A stretch of 64,000 bases of DNA, taken from an uncultured Tateyamaria sp. Lineage in GTDB: Bacteria; Pseudomonadota; Alphaproteobacteria; Rhodobacterales; Rhodobacteraceae. The notes beneath the pieces were generated by a model that had not been told where the DNA came from, searched no databases, and worked only from the letters and a program-made list of their open reading frames with translations. How positions within the stretch are numbered: position 1 is the stretch's first letter; every line of letters begins with the position of its first letter. The stretch covers positions 1,026,501 through 1,090,500 of the forward strand of contig NZ_CANNDS010000001.1 of NCBI RefSeq assembly GCF_947503415.1, written 5' to 3'. Shown one piece after another: positions 12,070-19,976 of the stretch. The translations under genes were made by a program, and so were the position numbers.

Positions 12070-13287
12070 CTATTCAGCGGCGTGCAGATGGTGAACGGGC
12101 GTCGTTGCAAAGCCGTCCCTTGTCTGTGGCGTGCGGATACCAAGGGCTGATCCCGCAATTTGCGTGCGCAGGACCTGTGCCGTGCCGCCGCCGATGGTGA
12201 ACATGCGCACGTCGCGGTACATGCGTTCCAGCGGTTCCTTGTCGCCATAGCCCCGCGCGCCAAACATCTGCAACGCATCGTTCACGACCTTGATCGCCAT
12301 TTCCGAGGCAAAGAGCTTGGCCCGCGCCGCCGATGTCATGTCGGGGAACTGGCTGCCGTTTGGCCCGCGCGACCGTGCCGCATCATGCAGCATCAGACGC
12401 GCGGCATGTATCTGCGTTTCCATGTCGGCCACCATCCATTGCAGGCCCTGAAACTCTGCCAGTGGCCGCCCGAATTGCTGGCGTTCCAGCAGGTAATCCT
12501 TGGCCCGGTCACAGGCCCCTGCTGCCACACCCATCGCGATTGTACCCGCACCCACCCGTTGCGAATTATAGGCGTTCATCAAATCGGCAAAACCGTGCCG
12601 GAACCCGGATGGCGGAAGAACGGCCCAGTCTTCGGCAATGACAAGGTTTTCCATTGTCAGTTCGGCCTCGGGCATGCCGCACAGCCCCATCGTCTTTTCG
12701 CGACCCGTGATCCTGAAGCCTTCGGGTGCAATACCTGCGTCCGGGTCCACGTGAACGATGAAACCGCCGATGCCCAACGGGCGACCGGCCTCGTCCAGCA
12801 CTCGGGCGAACACCAGATGCAGCTTTGAGACGCCGCCGCCGGTGATCCAGTGCTTGGTCCCGTTGATCACGTAGGTCTTGCCGCGCTTTTGCGCCGTTGT
12901 GCGCATGTCGGTTGCCGCACTGCCCGCTTCGGGCTCGGTGATGCAGATCGCAGGTTTGTCACCGGCCAGAACGATGGGGGCGCAAAACGCTTTCTGCGCC
13001 TCGGTGCCATATGCCATGATGGCGCTGATGCCGCCCATGTTCGCCTCGACAACAACGCGGGCTGTCAGCGTGCAGGCTTTGGCGATCTCTTCCACCACCT
13101 GAACGACATCCAGGCAACTGGCACCCGATCCGCCAAATTCCTTTGGGAGGCTCATCCCCATGATGTTTGCATCCACCAGATCGGCGATGTTGTCCCAGCA
13201 ATAGGTCCGCTCGGTGTCCCACGTGGCTGCGCGGCTTGCAAAGAGGGGTGCGAGGTCTTTGGCTTTGGCGACGGCTGGATGTGACAT
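12070..13287 (-). CDS. Acyl-CoA dehydrogenase superfamily protein, probable 3-sulfinopropanoyl-CoA desulfinase (AcdA-like)
   Basis: A 405-residue protein with the complete acyl-CoA dehydrogenase fold, including CITEPEAGSAATDM (about 115-128), HWITGGG (146-152) and RQQFGRPLAEFQGLQWMVAD. Both known positions of the catalytic Glu are altered. The IYEGT motif reads IGGGT (G367 at the Glu position), and the helix-G ERL-type motif reads YNSQRVGAG (Q243). An Arg at residue 77 (TLTARVVVEAN) sits before the conserved EAN. From memory, this Gln/Arg combination and the QTRDGF ending match AcdA desulfinases, which hydrolyse 3-sulfinopropionyl-CoA to propionyl-CoA and sulfite without dehydrogenation. A divergent LysR gene lies next to it. 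An ordinary acyl-CoA dehydrogenase is the alternative. Confidence 0.8.
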   Translation of the reverse strand: MSHPAVAKAKDLAPLFASRAATWDTERTYCWDNIADLVDANIMGMSLPKEFGGSGASCLDVVQVVEEIAKACTLTARVVVEANMGGISAIMAYGTEAQKAFCAPIVLAGDKPAICITEPEAGSAATDMRTTAQKRGKTYVINGTKHWITGGGVSKLHLVFARVLDEAGRPLGIGGFIVHVDPDAGIAPEGFRITGREKTMGLCGMPEAELTMENLVIAEDWAVLPPSGFRHGFADLMNAYNSQRVGAGTIAMGVAAGACDRAKDYLLERQQFGRPLAEFQGLQWMVADMETQIHAARLMLHDAARSRGPNGSQFPDMTSAARAKLFASEMAIKVVNDALQMFGARGYGDKEPLERMYRDVRMFTIGGGTAQVLRTQIAGSALGIRTPQTRDGFATTPVHHLHAAE

Positions 13288-13327: not shown

Positions 13328-13379
13328 ATTTCTTCAACTCAACGAAATAAGAATGAATATCAAATTCAGGAAACCTGAA
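13328..13379. promoter_or_regulatory. Candidate LysR operator and start-proximal palindrome
   Basis: In the divergent gap between the AcdA-like gene and LysR there is ATTTC-N11-GAAAT (13328-13348), the classical spacing of a LysR site. A second perfect palindrome, TTCAGG-AAA-CCTGAA (13365-13379), ends just before ATG 13383 and contains the AGGA ribosome-binding bases, so it could serve autoregulation at the DNA or RNA level. Confidence 0.45.
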
Positions 13380-13382
13380 CTT

Positions 13383-14255
13383 ATGCAAACACGTGCCCTG
13401 AGAAACCTTGTCAAAACCGCAAATGTCGGGTCGTTTCTGCGCGCGGCGGAGCAGCTGAACATGACGTTGTCGGCGCTGTCCATGCAGATGAAAGGGCTGG
13501 AAACCGAGCTTGGCGTTCAGCTGTTTGACCGGTCTGTGAGGCCGCCGCGCCTGACGCCCATTGGACGGGCCATTGTCGACAAGGCCGAAGATGTTCTGGC
13601 GCGCGAAGATGCGTTGCTGGACCTGTGTGTGCCCGACGATGATCTGGTTGGCACGTTCCGCATCGGGTTTGTCACGTCTGCGGCGGCGCGGCTGTTGCCG
13701 CTGTTCCTCAAAAACACGCAGCGGGGCATGAAACGCGCCACTTTCGCGTTTGAAACGGGGTTGTCCAGGGCCTTGCAGGAGAGCGTCCTGACCGGGCGCC
13801 TTGATGCGGCAGTGGTCACGGGGACCGAGGGGAACTTGCGTGGCCTGACCCAAGTGGAGCTGCGCCGGGAGCCGTTTGTCTTTGCCGCTCATTCGGGGAT
13901 TGCGGGCGATGGCCTTGGTGCTTTGATCGCCCGCCATACGTTCTTTCACTTCATGCCGCAGACCGGGATCGGGCAACTGATCGCGGATGCGATGAAGCCA
14001 ATTGATCGCCCCGCCGACGCGCCCATTGTGGTGCTCGACAATCTGGAAGCGATCATGGGGTGCGTCAAAGCGGGGTTGGGGTTTACGCTGCTTCCCGGCC
14101 CGGATGTGAACCGGTACGCCGATGAGGATCTGGTGAAGTTCCCCGCGCCGGCAGAAAGCCGACGGTCGTTGGTGCTGGTGACCCGGTCCGGAGATTTCAT
14201 CGGTCGGCGGCTGGATCTGCTGACGGCGCAATTTGATCCGCGACCTCTGGTTTGA
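13383..14255 (+). CDS. LysR-family transcriptional regulator
   Basis: A 290-residue LTTR. The helix-turn-helix covers about residues 15-45 (TANVGSFLRAAEQLNMTLSA, then LSMQMKGLETELG), followed by a periplasmic-binding-protein-like effector domain. An upstream in-frame ATG (13353) would overlap the candidate operator, and MQTRALRNLVKTA matches the family's usual first residues, so ATG 13383 is preferred. It is divergent from the AcdA-like gene with about 95 bp between starts, the arrangement expected for an LTTR controlling its neighbour. The TAXI-TRAP genes downstream on the same strand may also be targets. Confidence 0.88.
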   Translation: MQTRALRNLVKTANVGSFLRAAEQLNMTLSALSMQMKGLETELGVQLFDRSVRPPRLTPIGRAIVDKAEDVLAREDALLDLCVPDDDLVGTFRIGFVTSAAARLLPLFLKNTQRGMKRATFAFETGLSRALQESVLTGRLDAAVVTGTEGNLRGLTQVELRREPFVFAAHSGIAGDGLGALIARHTFFHFMPQTGIGQLIADAMKPIDRPADAPIVVLDNLEAIMGCVKAGLGFTLLPGPDVNRYADEDLVKFPAPAESRRSLVLVTRSGDFIGRRLDLLTAQFDPRPLV

Positions 14256-14484
14256 GTTTGCAGGCTGCCGGGGCCGTGCGTCTTCGCACGTTCAGGCCCG
14301 TCCGCGTGCTGTTGTTCGCCCTTTTTTTGAAGGGTGAAACCGAAAAGCCTACGAAAATCGTGGGGCATTTGTTGAGAAACCCCCACCTGCGACCTACCTC
14401 TCCTCGGATGGGTCCGACGTTCGGGCCCCCATCGACACAAGCTGATCCTTCGGGGGTCGGACAAAAACAGTGGAGGACTCACAC
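14256..14484. other. Intergenic hairpin region between LysR and TAXI gene
   Basis: No gene is seen. It holds a compact hairpin CGTGCG-TCTT-CGCACG (14275-14290) just after the LysR stop, probably a weak terminator. A second inverted repeat, TTCGCCCTT / AAGGGTGAA (14315-14323 and 14330-14338), surrounds a T-rich loop and could be a terminator or an operator for the TRAP genes. GGAGG precedes the TAXI start. Confidence 0.4.
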
Positions 14485-15471
14485 ATGAAAGCCATAGCAA
14501 CACTTGCTGCAACGGTGCTTGCCACGACAACCGCGTTTGCGGAAGGCGATCAGGATCGGACCGGCTGGCCCGAAAGCTTTACCGTCGCGACGGCCTCGCA
14601 AGGGGGCACGTATTTCGCCTACGGGTCGGGCTGGGCGAACCTTGTTGCCGAGGAGCTGGGCCTGACCGGCGGTGGCGAAGTGACGGGTGGACCCGGACAG
14701 AACATGGCGCTGGTCCATACCGGCGACGCGCAGTTCGGCATGACCACGATGGGTCCCGCAGCCGAGGCGATTGCGGGCCTCAGCCCGATTGCGCCCGGCC
14801 TTGAGATGACCAACGCCTGCGCGATGTTCCCGATGTACCAAACGCCGTTCTCGGTGACGGCGCTGTCGTCGTCGGGTATCACGACAATCGCGGATATCCC
14901 CGCAGGCTCCCGGATCGGCTTTGGCCCGGCGGGTTCAACATCCGACACGTATTTCCCGCGCATGATGGAAACTCTGGGCGTGGAGTTTGACCGCCGCAAC
15001 GGGTCGTGGAGCGACCTTGGCGGACAGCTGCAGGACGGGTTGATCGACGTGATCGCCTTTGCCGCCGGTGTGCCCGTGCCTGCGGTCAGCCAGCTTGAGG
15101 TGCAGACGGATGTGAACATCATCGAATTCACCGAGGCCGAGCAAACCACGATCATGGAAGCCTTCCCCGTGGCCCCCTTCGACATTGCGGCCAGCACGTA
15201 TTCGACGCTGGACGCGGATGCGCGGTCGGTGTCGATGTGGAACTTTGCCATCGCCAACTGCGACCTGCCCGACAGCATGGTCAATGCGGTGGTCGACATC
15301 ATCATGTCCGACAATGAGCGGATGATGAACATTCACAAGGCTGCCCGCTCTACCCTTCCGGAGAACTGGGACAAGAACGGCGGCGTCATTGCATGGCACC
15401 CCGGTGCGGCCCAGTGGTTTGTCGAAAACGCGGGCGCTGATATCCCTGCGGACCAGATCCACAGCAAATAA
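14485..15471 (+). CDS. TAXI-family TRAP transporter solute-binding protein
   Basis: A 328-residue periplasmic protein. The signal peptide is MKAIATLAATVLATTTAFA, cleaved before EGDQD. The mature start contains FTVATASQGGTYFAYGSGWA, the TAXI (TRAP-associated extracytoplasmic immunogenic) signature, and later GPAGSTSDTYFPRM. The protein captures a small organic acid or amino acid for the downstream TRAP permease. GGAGG lies about 10 bp before ATG 14485. A hairpin at 15481-15507 separates it from the permease gene, probably lowering permease expression relative to the binder. The ligand is unknown. Confidence 0.92.
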   Translation: MKAIATLAATVLATTTAFAEGDQDRTGWPESFTVATASQGGTYFAYGSGWANLVAEELGLTGGGEVTGGPGQNMALVHTGDAQFGMTTMGPAAEAIAGLSPIAPGLEMTNACAMFPMYQTPFSVTALSSSGITTIADIPAGSRIGFGPAGSTSDTYFPRMMETLGVEFDRRNGSWSDLGGQLQDGLIDVIAFAAGVPVPAVSQLEVQTDVNIIEFTEAEQTTIMEAFPVAPFDIAASTYSTLDADARSVSMWNFAIANCDLPDSMVNAVVDIIMSDNERMMNIHKAARSTLPENWDKNGGVIAWHPGAAQWFVENAGADIPADQIHSK

Positions 15472-15513: not shown

Positions 15514-15582
15514 CCATATCATGAGACATTTCAAAGCGACGGAATGATGCGGCCACAAGGGCGCACGGCAAGGGGGTATAGA

Positions 15583-17805
15583 ATGACCATCAACGCTCAG
15601 CGAGACGATGTGCCCGACGGGCCGATCAATGTCGATGGTGTTGATGACGAACCCGTAGAACACAATCGCCGCGCCTTCGAAGGTCGGGCCTATCTGGCCA
15701 TTGCCACGATTTCCGGTCTCTACGCCATTTTCCACATGGCCGTCCTGAACGGGTGGTCGATCAATTCGTGGACGGGGATCGATATTCCGGGCCTTCCCGT
15801 CTTTCCGATGGAGACGTGGAACTTTCGGATTGTTCACATTGCCGGGGCTTTGATCCTTGGATTCCTGCTGTATTCGGCACGCGAATTTCCGGAGCGGGAC
15901 AGGGGCGGCAGGCACCCGCTTGATATGGTCGCCTACCTGGCTTTGCTGCCTGCCTTCTATGCCTGCTACACAGCGATTACCTTTGCCACGCAGATCGCGG
16001 GCGGCACGATGTGGAACGGCATTGATGCGGCCATTCGAACGGCTGAGATTTGGCACTACGGCGTGCCGCTGATCGCGGCCACGGCGATTGGCATCGTGGT
16101 TGGCTGGCTGCGGCCGCGGGTGCGCGGCAGTATCGCGTCGGCGGATCTGGTGCTTGTTGTCTGTTCCGTTGCTGTCGCGATCTATCTGATCACCGTCTTT
16201 GGCACGTTGATGCGCAACGCCACCGGCACGCCCTTTGCCCCCATCGGAATGAGCCTTGCCGCCGTGGCAGGTACCGCATTGATCATGGAGATGACGCGGC
16301 GGGTGGCCGGTCTGGCCCTGATCGTGATTGCGGGCATCTTTCTGGTCTACGTGTTTGTCGGTGACCTGCTGCCCGGCTTCCTGAACGCACCCGACATCGC
16401 GTGGCAGCGTTTCTTCAGCCAAGTCTATACCGATGCGGGCATCTTGGGGCCGACAACGGCGGTGTCCTCGACCTACATCATTCTCTTCATCATCTTTGCC
16501 GCCTTCTTGCAGGCGTCGAAAGTTGGCGAGTATTTCGTCAACTTCGCCTTTGCCGCCGCAGGCCGCGCGCGCGGTGGTCCGGCCAAGGTTTCCATCTTTG
16601 CCAGTGGCTTGATGGGGATGATCAACGGGACATCGGCGGGCAACGTGGTGGCCACCGGGTCCCTGACGATCCCCCTGATGAAAAAGGTCGGCTACAGGCA
16701 GACAACCGCAGGCGCGGTTGAGGCGGCAGCCTCTACCGGCGGGCAGATCATGCCGCCCATCATGGGCGCCGGTGCGTTCATCATGGCCGAGATCACCGGC
16801 ATTCCCTATACCGACATTGCCATCGCCGCGATCATTCCTGCGGTCCTGTATTTCGTATCGATCTATTTCATGGTCGATTTCGAGGCCGCGAAGCTTGGCA
16901 TGCGCGGGATGCGCGAGGATGAGTTGCCAAAGTTCCGCGACATGGCGCGGCGGGTGTTCCTGTTCCTGCCGATTGTCATTCTGATCGCGGCCCTGTTCAT
17001 GGGCTATTCGGTGATCCGCGCCGGGACATTGGCGACGGCTGCCGCCGCCGTGGTCAGTTGGTTTACCCCCTACCGCATGGGCCTGCGATCCATCGCGAAG
17101 GCGTTCGAGCTGGCGGGCATCATGTCGATCCAGATCATTGCCGTCTGCGCCTGCGCGGGCATTATCGTCGGCGTCATTTCCCTGACCGGTGTGGGCGCGC
17201 GGTTCTCATCCGTGTTGCTGAGCATTGCAGATGCGAACCAGTTGCTGGCGCTGTTCTTTGCCATGTGCATTTCGATCCTGTTGGGCATGGGGATGCCCAC
17301 GACAGCCGCCTATGCGGTTGCCGCAAGCGTCGTGGCGCCGGGCTTGGTTCAGCTGGGCATTCCCGCCCTTACCGCGCATTTCTTCGTGTTCTATTTCGCC
17401 GTCGTCTCTGCCATCACGCCGCCTGTGGCGCTGGCCAGCTATGCTGCTGCTGGTATTTCCGGGGCCAATCCGATGGAAACCTCTGTCGCGTCCTTCAAGA
17501 TCGGAATCTCTGCCTTCATCGTGCCGTTCATGTTCTTCTATAACTCAGCACTGTTGATGGACGGCACGTGGTTCGAGGTTTTGCGTGCCGGTGCGACTGC
17601 CATCTTTGGCGTCTTCCTGTTGTCATCGGGCGTGCAGGGCTGGTGGACCGCACGGCGGGCGAGCTGGCCGATCCGGGCTGGGTTGATTGTTGTCGCGCTC
17701 TTTATGATCGAGGGCGGTATTGTGTCGGACCTGATTGGAGTGGGCGGGGCAGTCGCGCTGTTCGTTCTGTCCCGTGCGGCGAACCCGAAACCGGCGGCAT
17801 CGTAA
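15583..17805 (+). CDS. TRAP transporter permease, 4TM/12TM fusion (DctQ-DctM)
   Basis: A 740-residue membrane protein with about 16-18 hydrophobic segments. The N-terminal third is DctQ-like; the remainder is the DctM module, with landmarks INGTSAGNVVATGSLTIPLM (about 347-366) and GGQIMPPIMGAGAFIMAE (about 387-404). Fused DctQM permeases are the norm for TAXI systems and use an ion gradient for uptake. AGGGGG precedes ATG 15583; an in-frame ATG at 15544 has no such site. It works with the TAXI protein upstream. The last segments beyond residue 690 look like extra C-terminal helices. Confidence 0.92.
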   Translation: MTINAQRDDVPDGPINVDGVDDEPVEHNRRAFEGRAYLAIATISGLYAIFHMAVLNGWSINSWTGIDIPGLPVFPMETWNFRIVHIAGALILGFLLYSAREFPERDRGGRHPLDMVAYLALLPAFYACYTAITFATQIAGGTMWNGIDAAIRTAEIWHYGVPLIAATAIGIVVGWLRPRVRGSIASADLVLVVCSVAVAIYLITVFGTLMRNATGTPFAPIGMSLAAVAGTALIMEMTRRVAGLALIVIAGIFLVYVFVGDLLPGFLNAPDIAWQRFFSQVYTDAGILGPTTAVSSTYIILFIIFAAFLQASKVGEYFVNFAFAAAGRARGGPAKVSIFASGLMGMINGTSAGNVVATGSLTIPLMKKVGYRQTTAGAVEAAASTGGQIMPPIMGAGAFIMAEITGIPYTDIAIAAIIPAVLYFVSIYFMVDFEAAKLGMRGMREDELPKFRDMARRVFLFLPIVILIAALFMGYSVIRAGTLATAAAAVVSWFTPYRMGLRSIAKAFELAGIMSIQIIAVCACAGIIVGVISLTGVGARFSSVLLSIADANQLLALFFAMCISILLGMGMPTTAAYAVAASVVAPGLVQLGIPALTAHFFVFYFAVVSAITPPVALASYAAAGISGANPMETSVASFKIGISAFIVPFMFFYNSALLMDGTWFEVLRAGATAIFGVFLLSSGVQGWWTARRASWPIRAGLIVVALFMIEGGIVSDLIGVGGAVALFVLSRAANPKPAAS

Positions 17806-17879: not shown

Positions 17880-18770
17880 TCACGCGCCCTTTGACCAAAG
17901 CTCCATCAAGGCTTGTGCCATTTCGACGTTCCTGTTGGCATAGACCGCCGCCTGCAACGCTTCCTGACCATAGCGGTTCGCAAGCGAGATCAGTTCACCG
18001 CTTTCGATCTCACGATGCGCCATGCTGAAGGGGAGCCAGCCAATGCCAAGCCCATGAAGCACCAGCTCCCGTGTGCCGCTGGAAAAGGCTGACACGCTGA
18101 ATGCGTTGGCACCGGAGCCCGCAATGCCGAACGGCCTGTCGTTCTTCTGCAGCACCTCACCGAAGTAGCTGCCCACCGGATAGACGATCGCGGGCGTGTC
18201 GGCCGGAACCTCGCCCGCGTCCGTCACGATATAGCGCAGCGCGCCGCCGACCACCGGGACCAGATAGTCGTTTCCCCAGATGCCGCGCCGGATCTCCGGG
18301 CCGAACTGAAGCGGGCCGATGCTTTCGGCCTCGTAACACAGCAGCATGCTGGTATCGCCCCGCAGAAACATGGACACACAGTCATTCAGATTGCCGGCGC
18401 GCACGCGGAATTGCAGGCCCGGAAAGCTGCGCCTGGCCCGCAGTGCCATATCGGGGAAGGTTGCACAGACAGGAGCGTGCTGGGCGGCCAGCTCAACCGT
18501 CTGACGCGCCTTGTCGAATTGCGCAATTTTTGTGCGCAGCTCTCGCAGGCGGGCCATCAGCGCGCGGATTTCGGCCTCGTTGGACAGAAGGGCGTCGCTG
18601 ATCTCCACCCTGTTGGTCTGCCGGTCCAGAACGGTCACGCCAAGCCAGTCCTCGAACCCGCGAATACGCCTTGAGAATGCAGGCTGAGTGATGTTTCGGC
18701 GGGCGGCGGCGCGGGACATGTTCCCTTCTTCCAGCAAGACAAGAACGTCGTCCAACCATTGCAATTGCAT
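17880..18770 (-). CDS. LysR-family transcriptional regulator (CuyR-like position)
   Basis: A 296-residue LTTR. The HTH is at about residues 15-45 ([20 protein letters not shown], then [11 protein letters not shown]), followed by an effector domain. The frame is open 16 codons upstream, but ATG 18770 gives the standard [15 protein letters not shown] opening. It is divergent from the CuyA-like gene, with about 190 bp between starts and an 11-bp inverted repeat in between. That placement suggests it senses the sulfonate or amino acid substrate and controls the downstream enzyme-transporter operon. The effector is not identifiable from sequence. Confidence 0.88.
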
Positions 18771-18806
18771 CGCGTCCCCCAGGTCCAGCCAAAGGAAATG
18801 TATGGG

Positions 18807-18861
18807 CAGCCCAAGCAAAAAGCACTGTTTTTCTATCTGGCCCTAGATGATGCTTGGGCTG
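18807..18861. promoter_or_regulatory. Perfect 11-bp inverted repeat, candidate LysR operator
   Basis: CAGCCCAAGCA (18807-18817) and TGCTTGGGCTG (18851-18861) are exact inverted copies separated by 33 bp, midway between the divergent LysR and CuyA-like genes. The spacing would suit two dimers of an LTTR tetramer, or DNA looping over the promoter. Confidence 0.55.
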
Positions 18862-18962
18862 ATCGAGGCATGGGGGACATCGTGACTGCTACTGAACACA
18901 TGACGGCGCAAGATTTGACCAGTGACACCGATGTGCTGGCGAGCCGCTGCAAGGAGCTTGCC

Positions 18963-19976
18963 GTGCGGCTGGCGCAGTTTCCGCGGGTCGCGCTGGGACA
19001 CTTTCCGACCCCGCTGGAACCGATGGACCGCCTGAGCGAGATGCTGGGTGGTCCGCGACTGTGGGTGAAACGGGACGATTGTACCGGTCTGTCGTCGGGC
19101 GGCAACAAGACCCGCAAGCTTGAGTATCTGATGGCTGACGCCCAGCAAAAGGGTGCAGACACCATCATCACCCAAGGCGCCACCCAGTCAAATCATGCCC
19201 GCCAGACCGCTGCGGCGGCGGCCAAACTTGGCATGGGCTGTCATATTCTGCTTGAGGACCGCACCGGGTCAAATGATGAAAACTACATCATGAACGGCAA
19301 CGTGCTGCTGGATCGCCTGCATGGGGCGACCGTGTCAAAGCGCAGCGGCGGCACCGACATGAATGCGGAAATGGAGCGGTTGGCCGACAGTTTGCAGCAG
19401 GACGGAAAGACGCCCTACATCATCCCCGGCGGCGGCTCCAACCCGATTGGCGCGCTGGGGTATGTCAATTGCGCCCGCGAACTGGTCGAGCAGGCCAGCG
19501 GCATGGGCCTGAAGATCGACGCGCTTGTGCATGCCACCGGATCGTCCGGTACGCAGGCCGGGCTGGTCGCAGGATTGGCCGCCATCGAAAGCGACATTCA
19601 CCTGCTGGGCATCGGCGTGCGGGCACCGCAAGAAAAGCAGGAAGGCATGGTCTTTGACCTTGCACAGAAAACAGCGGCCTTTCTGGGCATGCCCGACGAC
19701 ATCGCCCGCAGCAGCGTCCGTGCCAATTGCGACTATGTCGGTCCGGGCTATGGTCTTCCGACGGACGGGATGATCGCCGCGCTGAAACTGCTGGCGCAGA
19801 CCGAAGGGCTTTTGTTCGACCCGGTCTATTCCGGCAAGGGCCTTGATGGGCTGATCGACCTGACCCGCAAGGGCTATTTCGACGGTATGAGCAACGTCGT
19901 TTTCACCCATACTGGCGGCAGTGCCGCCCTGTTCGGCTATCCCGAGACCTTCGATTTGCCGGGCTACAGCTCATAA
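18963..19976 (+). CDS. cuyA: PLP-dependent L-cysteate sulfo-lyase / D-cysteine desulfhydrase family (CuyA-like)
   Basis: A 337-residue fold-type II PLP enzyme of the ACC deaminase/D-cysteine desulfhydrase family. The PLP lysine is K52 in [13 protein letters not shown], followed by [20 protein letters not shown] and [12 protein letters not shown], and the C-terminal [12 protein letters not shown]. These phrases closely match the roseobacter L-cysteate sulfo-lyase CuyA as I remember it. The reaction would be L-cysteate to pyruvate, sulfite and ammonia. The frame is open far upstream, but GTG 18963 has a perfect AAGGAG six bases away and yields [19 protein letters not shown], the family's normal N-terminus. 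It heads an ABC transporter operon. D-cysteine desulfhydrase is the alternative. Confidence 0.82.

Follow-up and report, generated by a model that had tools for sequence, protein, structure and literature searches.

In Advenella and Variovorax, a dioxygenase turns 3-mercaptopropionate into 3-sulfinopropanoate and SucCD or Act activates the product, according to the portions of the two papers available to us (PMC5373536, PMC6370202). The same portions describe how the genes lie. Those for LysR, a class III CoA-transferase, Acd and the dioxygenase Mdo are neighbours in Advenella, with TctC proteins close by, and growth on dithiodipropionate suffers when lysR and xre are both deleted (PMC5373536). 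For Variovorax paradoxus TBEA6, where the desulfinase reaction proposed is the same as the one we propose here, mdo, act (a succinyl-CoA-dependent CoA-transferase) and acdA form one cluster, and the dioxygenase is described as cysteine dioxygenase-like (PMC6370202). The desulfinase belongs to the acyl-CoA dehydrogenase superfamily. In the excerpt seen of PMC8360864 it is a non-redox enzyme that eliminates sulfite and lacks the glutamate of the YEG motif, reading AGG in Advenella AcdA; the YEG glutamate is also absent from the isovaleryl-CoA dehydrogenase type (PMC8360864).

We analysed a stretch of 64,000 nucleotides from an uncultured Tateyamaria sp. (the window; its own genome carries the label G000), in which acdA occupies positions 12070-13287 on the minus strand and encodes a product of 405 aa from an ATG start, with the reading frame intact. 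The gene very probably encodes an AcdA-type 3-sulfinopropanoyl-CoA desulfinase. This reading is based on sequence, clade, residues, predicted fold and gene neighbourhood; the reaction, the roles of the residues, regulation, import and CoA activation are what we infer. Of the parts of the Advenella and Variovorax pathway, the window has acdA and the LysR gene, and a LysR gene is likewise near acdA in Advenella (PMC5373536, in the part available). Unlike in Advenella, acdA stands here without an adjacent CoA-transferase or mdo, and the neighbouring importer is a TAXI-type TRAP system; unlike in Variovorax, a PF05995 search gave no mdo candidate in the genome. At the YEG position the window protein has the non-acidic motif GGG, as against AGG in Advenella AcdA (PMC8360864, as excerpted).

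Diagnostic residues and family identity

The first-pass annotation, which named no strand, had drawn attention to R77, Q243 and G367, and all three were found at these positions in the 405-aa product, within CTLTARVVVEA, NAYNSQRVGAG and MFTIGGGTAQV, respectively. It had also claimed that the catalytic base was lost, and here the alignment with other acyl-CoA dehydrogenases agrees with it: column 367 is that of the YEG glutamate and column 243 that of the alternative glutamate, which we take to be the base position of the isovaleryl-CoA dehydrogenase type, and Q243 and G367 replace both. The isovaleryl-CoA dehydrogenase type retains Glu where the window protein has Gln243; a paralogue in the same genome (L003_1) has this type's pattern, ERVVLA together with GAG. 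R77 and Q243 of the window protein share alignment columns with AcdA R84 and Q246, and we take this Arg and Gln to be the residues that define the desulfinase family, assuming for both the roles in AcdA that are outlined below.

The alignment held 107 proteins, 96 of them family rows. These were the window protein, AcdA and 94 proteins at least 50% identical to the window protein, drawn from 74 of the best 80 loci and from 20 loci of other searches after removal of exact duplicates; the best 80 loci (68-84% identity) came from a search of genome contigs that gave 301 relatives, and were also used for the neighbourhood counts below. The 11 other rows comprised three PDB dehydrogenases, five paralogues from the window's own genome and three proteins from related loci. 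That genome has 15 PF00441 matches, eight of which became loci (one being acdA itself), and five of the other seven passed a cut of 300 aligned residues. R77, Q243 and G367 are fixed in 96/96 family rows (95 of them distinct, since L124_2 is the window gene again) and this fixation argues that the Q243/G367 pattern is not due to chance. The three residues are also invariant in all 40 rows of alignment A1. R77 and Q243 are each absent from all 11 other acyl-CoA dehydrogenases, and every one of these has E or D at one base position or the other.

Searches with the whole protein point the same way. The best PDB relative is AcdA of Advenella mimigardefordensis DPN7T (5af7 and 5ahs; phmmer, 439 bits, 1.4e-130; next chain 201 bits), which shares with it 211 of 379 aligned residues (56%) and has the same R and Q. 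Among NCBIfam models, the equivalog for 3-sulfinopropanoyl-CoA desulfinase (NF042439, SulpropCoADesulf) scores 643.4 bits against a cut-off of 600, and the next model, acryloyl-CoA reductase AcrC (NF042972), 265.7 bits, under its cut-off of 640. In a tree of 57 rows that included ordinary acyl-CoA dehydrogenases, 46 family rows, with AcdA and the window protein among them, formed a group separate from the other 11 (SH-aLRT 99); this is a quick method with SH-aLRT support only, run on a subset of the aligned rows, and the program flagged the long outgroup branches as unsure. AcdA lies within the family clade beside a Rhodobacteraceae protein (L096, from G224) at SH-aLRT 96, an inside placement relative to the alphaproteobacterial rows that depends on forks at SH-aLRT 93-94. 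An AlphaFold2 model built from 40 aligned sequences (pLDDT 90.4) gave 5ahs and 5af7 as its first matches (TM 0.92, rmsd 1.7), with TM 0.80-0.85 for 47 others of the 50 matches listed, so the predicted fold resembles that of Advenella AcdA. The equivalog cut-off, the AcdA clade, the identity at R84 and Q246 and the structure comparison together favour the AcdA-type identity that the first-pass annotation had proposed. That the protein adds a new member to an enzyme family already described is well supported by sequence and model, and a current annotation profile detects it.

In mechanistic terms, the protein would have an acyl-CoA dehydrogenase fold without either of the possible catalytic glutamates, and ordinary acyl-CoAs should therefore not be dehydrogenated. 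R77 (AcdA R84) would bind the sulfino group of 3-sulfinopropanoyl-CoA, Q243 (AcdA Q246) would occupy the place of the base, and cleavage of the C-S bond, without net redox change, would yield sulfite and propionyl-CoA. Because AcdA is only 56% identical, a shift of substrate within its clade is possible, and the enzymes of this alphaproteobacterial subclade might act on another sulfino-acyl-CoA, for example a longer or substituted one. We consider this quite improbable. It would fit the position of the window gene in a subclade that holds 34 of the tree's 57 rows (SH-aLRT 100), apart from Advenella AcdA, as well as the lack of a PF05995 dioxygenase match and the presence of a gene for a ThDP enzyme, in two loci with an aminotransferase, next to some members. 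However, all three diagnostic residues are retained and the score lies above the equivalog cut-off, and the gene context is no marker of the subclade, since in L112-L116, members that stand further off, ThDP or CaiB genes are neighbours too. Less likely still is an acyl-CoA dehydrogenase of the ordinary kind whose base has been displaced or is an alternative one: superfamily fold and ancestry would allow it, and the base does move in known relatives (PMC8360864, in the part seen), but both known base positions hold a non-acidic residue (Q243, G367), Q243 and R77 are fixed in 96/96 family rows, and the protein groups with AcdA in the tree. A degenerate, non-catalytic homologue, which loss of the base by itself would fit, is scarcely credible given the intact reading frame, identical residues fixed over many genera and the divergent regulator that 66 of the best 80 of 301 related loci retain.

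Spread of acdA, its regulator and neighbouring transporters

The desulfinase gene is scattered: among 248 genomes of the taxonomic family, 25, with the window's own among them, had an NF042439 match above the cut-off, as did 7 of 398 genomes of the phylum, all seven in the window's class. A cultured relative, Tateyamaria omphalii (L015), has acdA. One genome (G224, contig C13) has two desulfinase-family matches, one with an internal stop codon; the protein nearest to Advenella AcdA in the tree comes from the same genome.

Divergent from acdA lies a gene for a LysR-type regulator (13353-14255, plus strand). The open reading frame as listed from 13353 probably starts ten codons early; an internal ATG at 13383 (MQTRALRNLV) is the start in several relatives, and from the sequence the gene probably begins there. 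Its best NCBIfam matches are LysR regulators, with none above its own cut-off among the 25 matches listed. A LysR match was present in 67 of the best 80 of 301 related loci, in 66 cases next to acdA and on the opposite strand, and a stricter count of called genes within 6 kb gave 61/80. All such neighbourhood counts are lower bounds, as the sequence stops close to acdA in some loci, six of the 80 having less than 3.5 kb upstream of it. Genes were called with a home-made codon-usage caller that missed acdA itself in one of the 80 and gives approximate starts. In an alignment of upstream regions, a TTATT core (on the acdA strand) lined up in 13/13 regions, those of 12 selected loci and the window's own, and the stretch at 13340-13355, between acdA and lysR, is a candidate LysR-type binding site. 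The divergent LysR gene probably controls acdA.

The conserved unit is acdA with the divergent LysR gene, and the importer comes after it. The latter comprises a TAXI-family TRAP solute-binding protein (14470-15471, plus strand; TIGR02122, 146 bits, cut-off 84.35) and the fused TRAP permease that goes with it (15544-17805, plus strand; TIGR02123, 615.7 bits, cut-off 320.65). This system may import the substrate of the pathway, a candidate role that we regard as a lead only. A TAXI-TRAP system occurs within 6 kb of acdA in 7 of the best 80 of 301 related loci, and repeated pairing is argued by G183, where an acdA only 58% identical adjoins the same TRAP system (85% identical). The solute-binding protein (at least 63% identity) is nevertheless found in 5/25 acdA-positive and 37/223 acdA-negative genomes, with no enrichment, and its link to 3-sulfinopropanoate is weak because it is about equally common without acdA; the idea of an acdA-specific importer is weakened accordingly.

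Of 10 TRAP regions compared, six (L142, L143, L144, L147, L148 and L149) have the importer after genes for a sensor kinase and response regulator, which are 46-51% and 60-69% identical, respectively, to those of L144; the L143 regulator was called in two pieces. In the window, the LysR/acdA pair stands where the kinase and regulator stand in these loci. We dropped an identification of the kinase/regulator pairs as DctB/DctD, as the best NCBIfam matches in the two of six pairs scanned were PgtB/AtoS and NtrC/AtoC, none above its own cut-off. Within 6 kb of acdA in the same 80 of 301 loci, a DASS transporter was found in 5/80 and a TctC-like protein in 4/80; FadD and a BASS transporter, each a neighbour of acdA in 1/80, were rejected as members of the unit.

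The window also encodes a predicted second sulfite-releasing enzyme, the putative D-cysteate sulfo-lyase CuyA (18759-19976, start uncertain, plus strand; NF052482, 535.3 bits, cut-off 450), with a divergent LysR gene of its own (17880-18818) and, behind it, a ProX-like binding protein whose score is below its own cut-off. CuyA-like genes lie near acdA in L041, L049, L052 and L074 as well, that of L041 scoring 345.9, below the NF052482 cut-off.

Supply of the sulfinate

The point of interest is where marine Alphaproteobacteria obtain the substrate of the desulfinase. The first-pass annotation had suggested C3 sulfur acids from DMSP or mercaptopropionate, and searches with thiol dioxygenase profiles gave this source no support. 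A PF05995 thiol dioxygenase was not found in the window's genome at an E value of 0.001, with a profile that did match in one control genome, and the known supply route therefore appears to be missing here; PF07847 also had no match in the genome, which shows little, since none of the control genomes matched it either. With both profiles unmatched, we set mercaptopropionate aside as the source in this genome. PF05995 was likewise found in 0/25 acdA-positive genomes of the family, where 4 of 248 genomes carry it, and in 0/7 acdA-positive genomes of the phylum sample, where 38 of 398 had a match, 34 of them over the cut-off. Elsewhere, several genomes have matches close to the cut-off, so that a divergent dioxygenase could escape the search, and an overlap of 0/25 is about the chance expectation given 4/248; we claim no avoidance. 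The absence of a match from all 25 acdA-bearing genomes of the family suggests that 3-sulfinopropanoate, or a precursor, is supplied in some way other than that described in the parts seen of PMC5373536 and PMC6370202. A class III CoA-transferase was not among the acdA neighbours scanned in the window, and CoA activation might fall to an enzyme encoded elsewhere, either SucCD or a class III CoA-transferase whose gene (L109:11026-12243) lies about 0.75 Mb from acdA.

Related loci offer a different suggestion. Within 6 kb of acdA, a gene for a ThDP enzyme was found in 10, a CaiB-type transferase in 9, both in 7 and an aminotransferase in 2 of the best 80 of 301 loci; the CaiB-type transferase can be set beside the class III CoA-transferase gene that neighbours acd in Advenella and the act gene clustered with acdA in Variovorax, by description (PMC5373536 and PMC6370202, in the parts available). 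The two loci with an aminotransferase, L017 and L040, have the order acdA, ThDP enzyme, AspB-like aminotransferase, CaiB. Four CaiB proteins were scanned and matched succinate-glutarate CoA-transferase best (458-490 bits, below the cut-off of 750), and four ThDP enzymes matched acetolactate synthases, again below the cut-off. As some relatives have acdA grouped with genes for a CoA-transferase and a ThDP enzyme, and two loci with that for an aminotransferase as well, we suggest, speculatively, an amino-acid-type source of the sulfinate. The AspB-like aminotransferase would convert L-homocysteinesulfinate, a C4 analogue of glutamate, to 4-sulfino-2-oxobutanoate, which the acetolactate-synthase-like ThDP enzyme would decarboxylate; a dehydrogenase would convert the resulting aldehyde to 3-sulfinopropanoate, and a succinate/glutarate-type CoA-transferase would activate this for AcdA, which would then free sulfite. 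That AcdA in marine Alphaproteobacteria chiefly ends such a route, and not the mercaptopropionate pathway, is a tentative proposal and on present evidence an unlikely one.

The ThDP gene directly adjoins acdA in 6 of the 25 acdA-positive genomes (G003, G089, G101, G126, G194 and G206). A ThDP gene matching the L040 protein at an E value of 1e-100 is present in 18/25 acdA-positive vs 49/223 acdA-negative genomes (Fisher p 9e-7, a guide only, the genomes being related), and 7/25 acdA-positive genomes are without one. The window's genome has an unlinked ThDP/CaiB pair about 753 kb from acdA, its products 65% and 64% identical to those of L040. Such a pair occurs without acdA in G240, of the window's genus, and in G188, and must for this reason have another role too. 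An aldehyde dehydrogenase gene was not seen in the acdA/ThDP/CaiB clusters. Among the papers listed in literature searches on 3-sulfinopropionate, roseobacter desulfinases, homocysteinesulfinate, and DMSP with 3-mercaptopropionate and dioxygenase, neither AcdA in roseobacters nor the amino-acid route was reported, judging by titles and abstract openings.

The unlinked region on contig C1 of the window's genome (L109:9393-13762, about 284-289 kb) has genes for a ThDP enzyme, a CaiB-type CoA-transferase and a 448-aa protein in a row. The last has no NCBIfam match at 1e-20. The same three-gene order is repeated in G240, G231 and G188, where the third protein is 84, 56 and 65% identical, respectively.

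The set of genes that neighbours acdA in these relatives thus yields one concrete, testable proposal for how the substrate may be supplied. By whichever route 3-sulfinopropanoate is obtained, the AcdA-type desulfinase would connect organic sulfur directly with sulfite and propionyl-CoA in marine bacteria.
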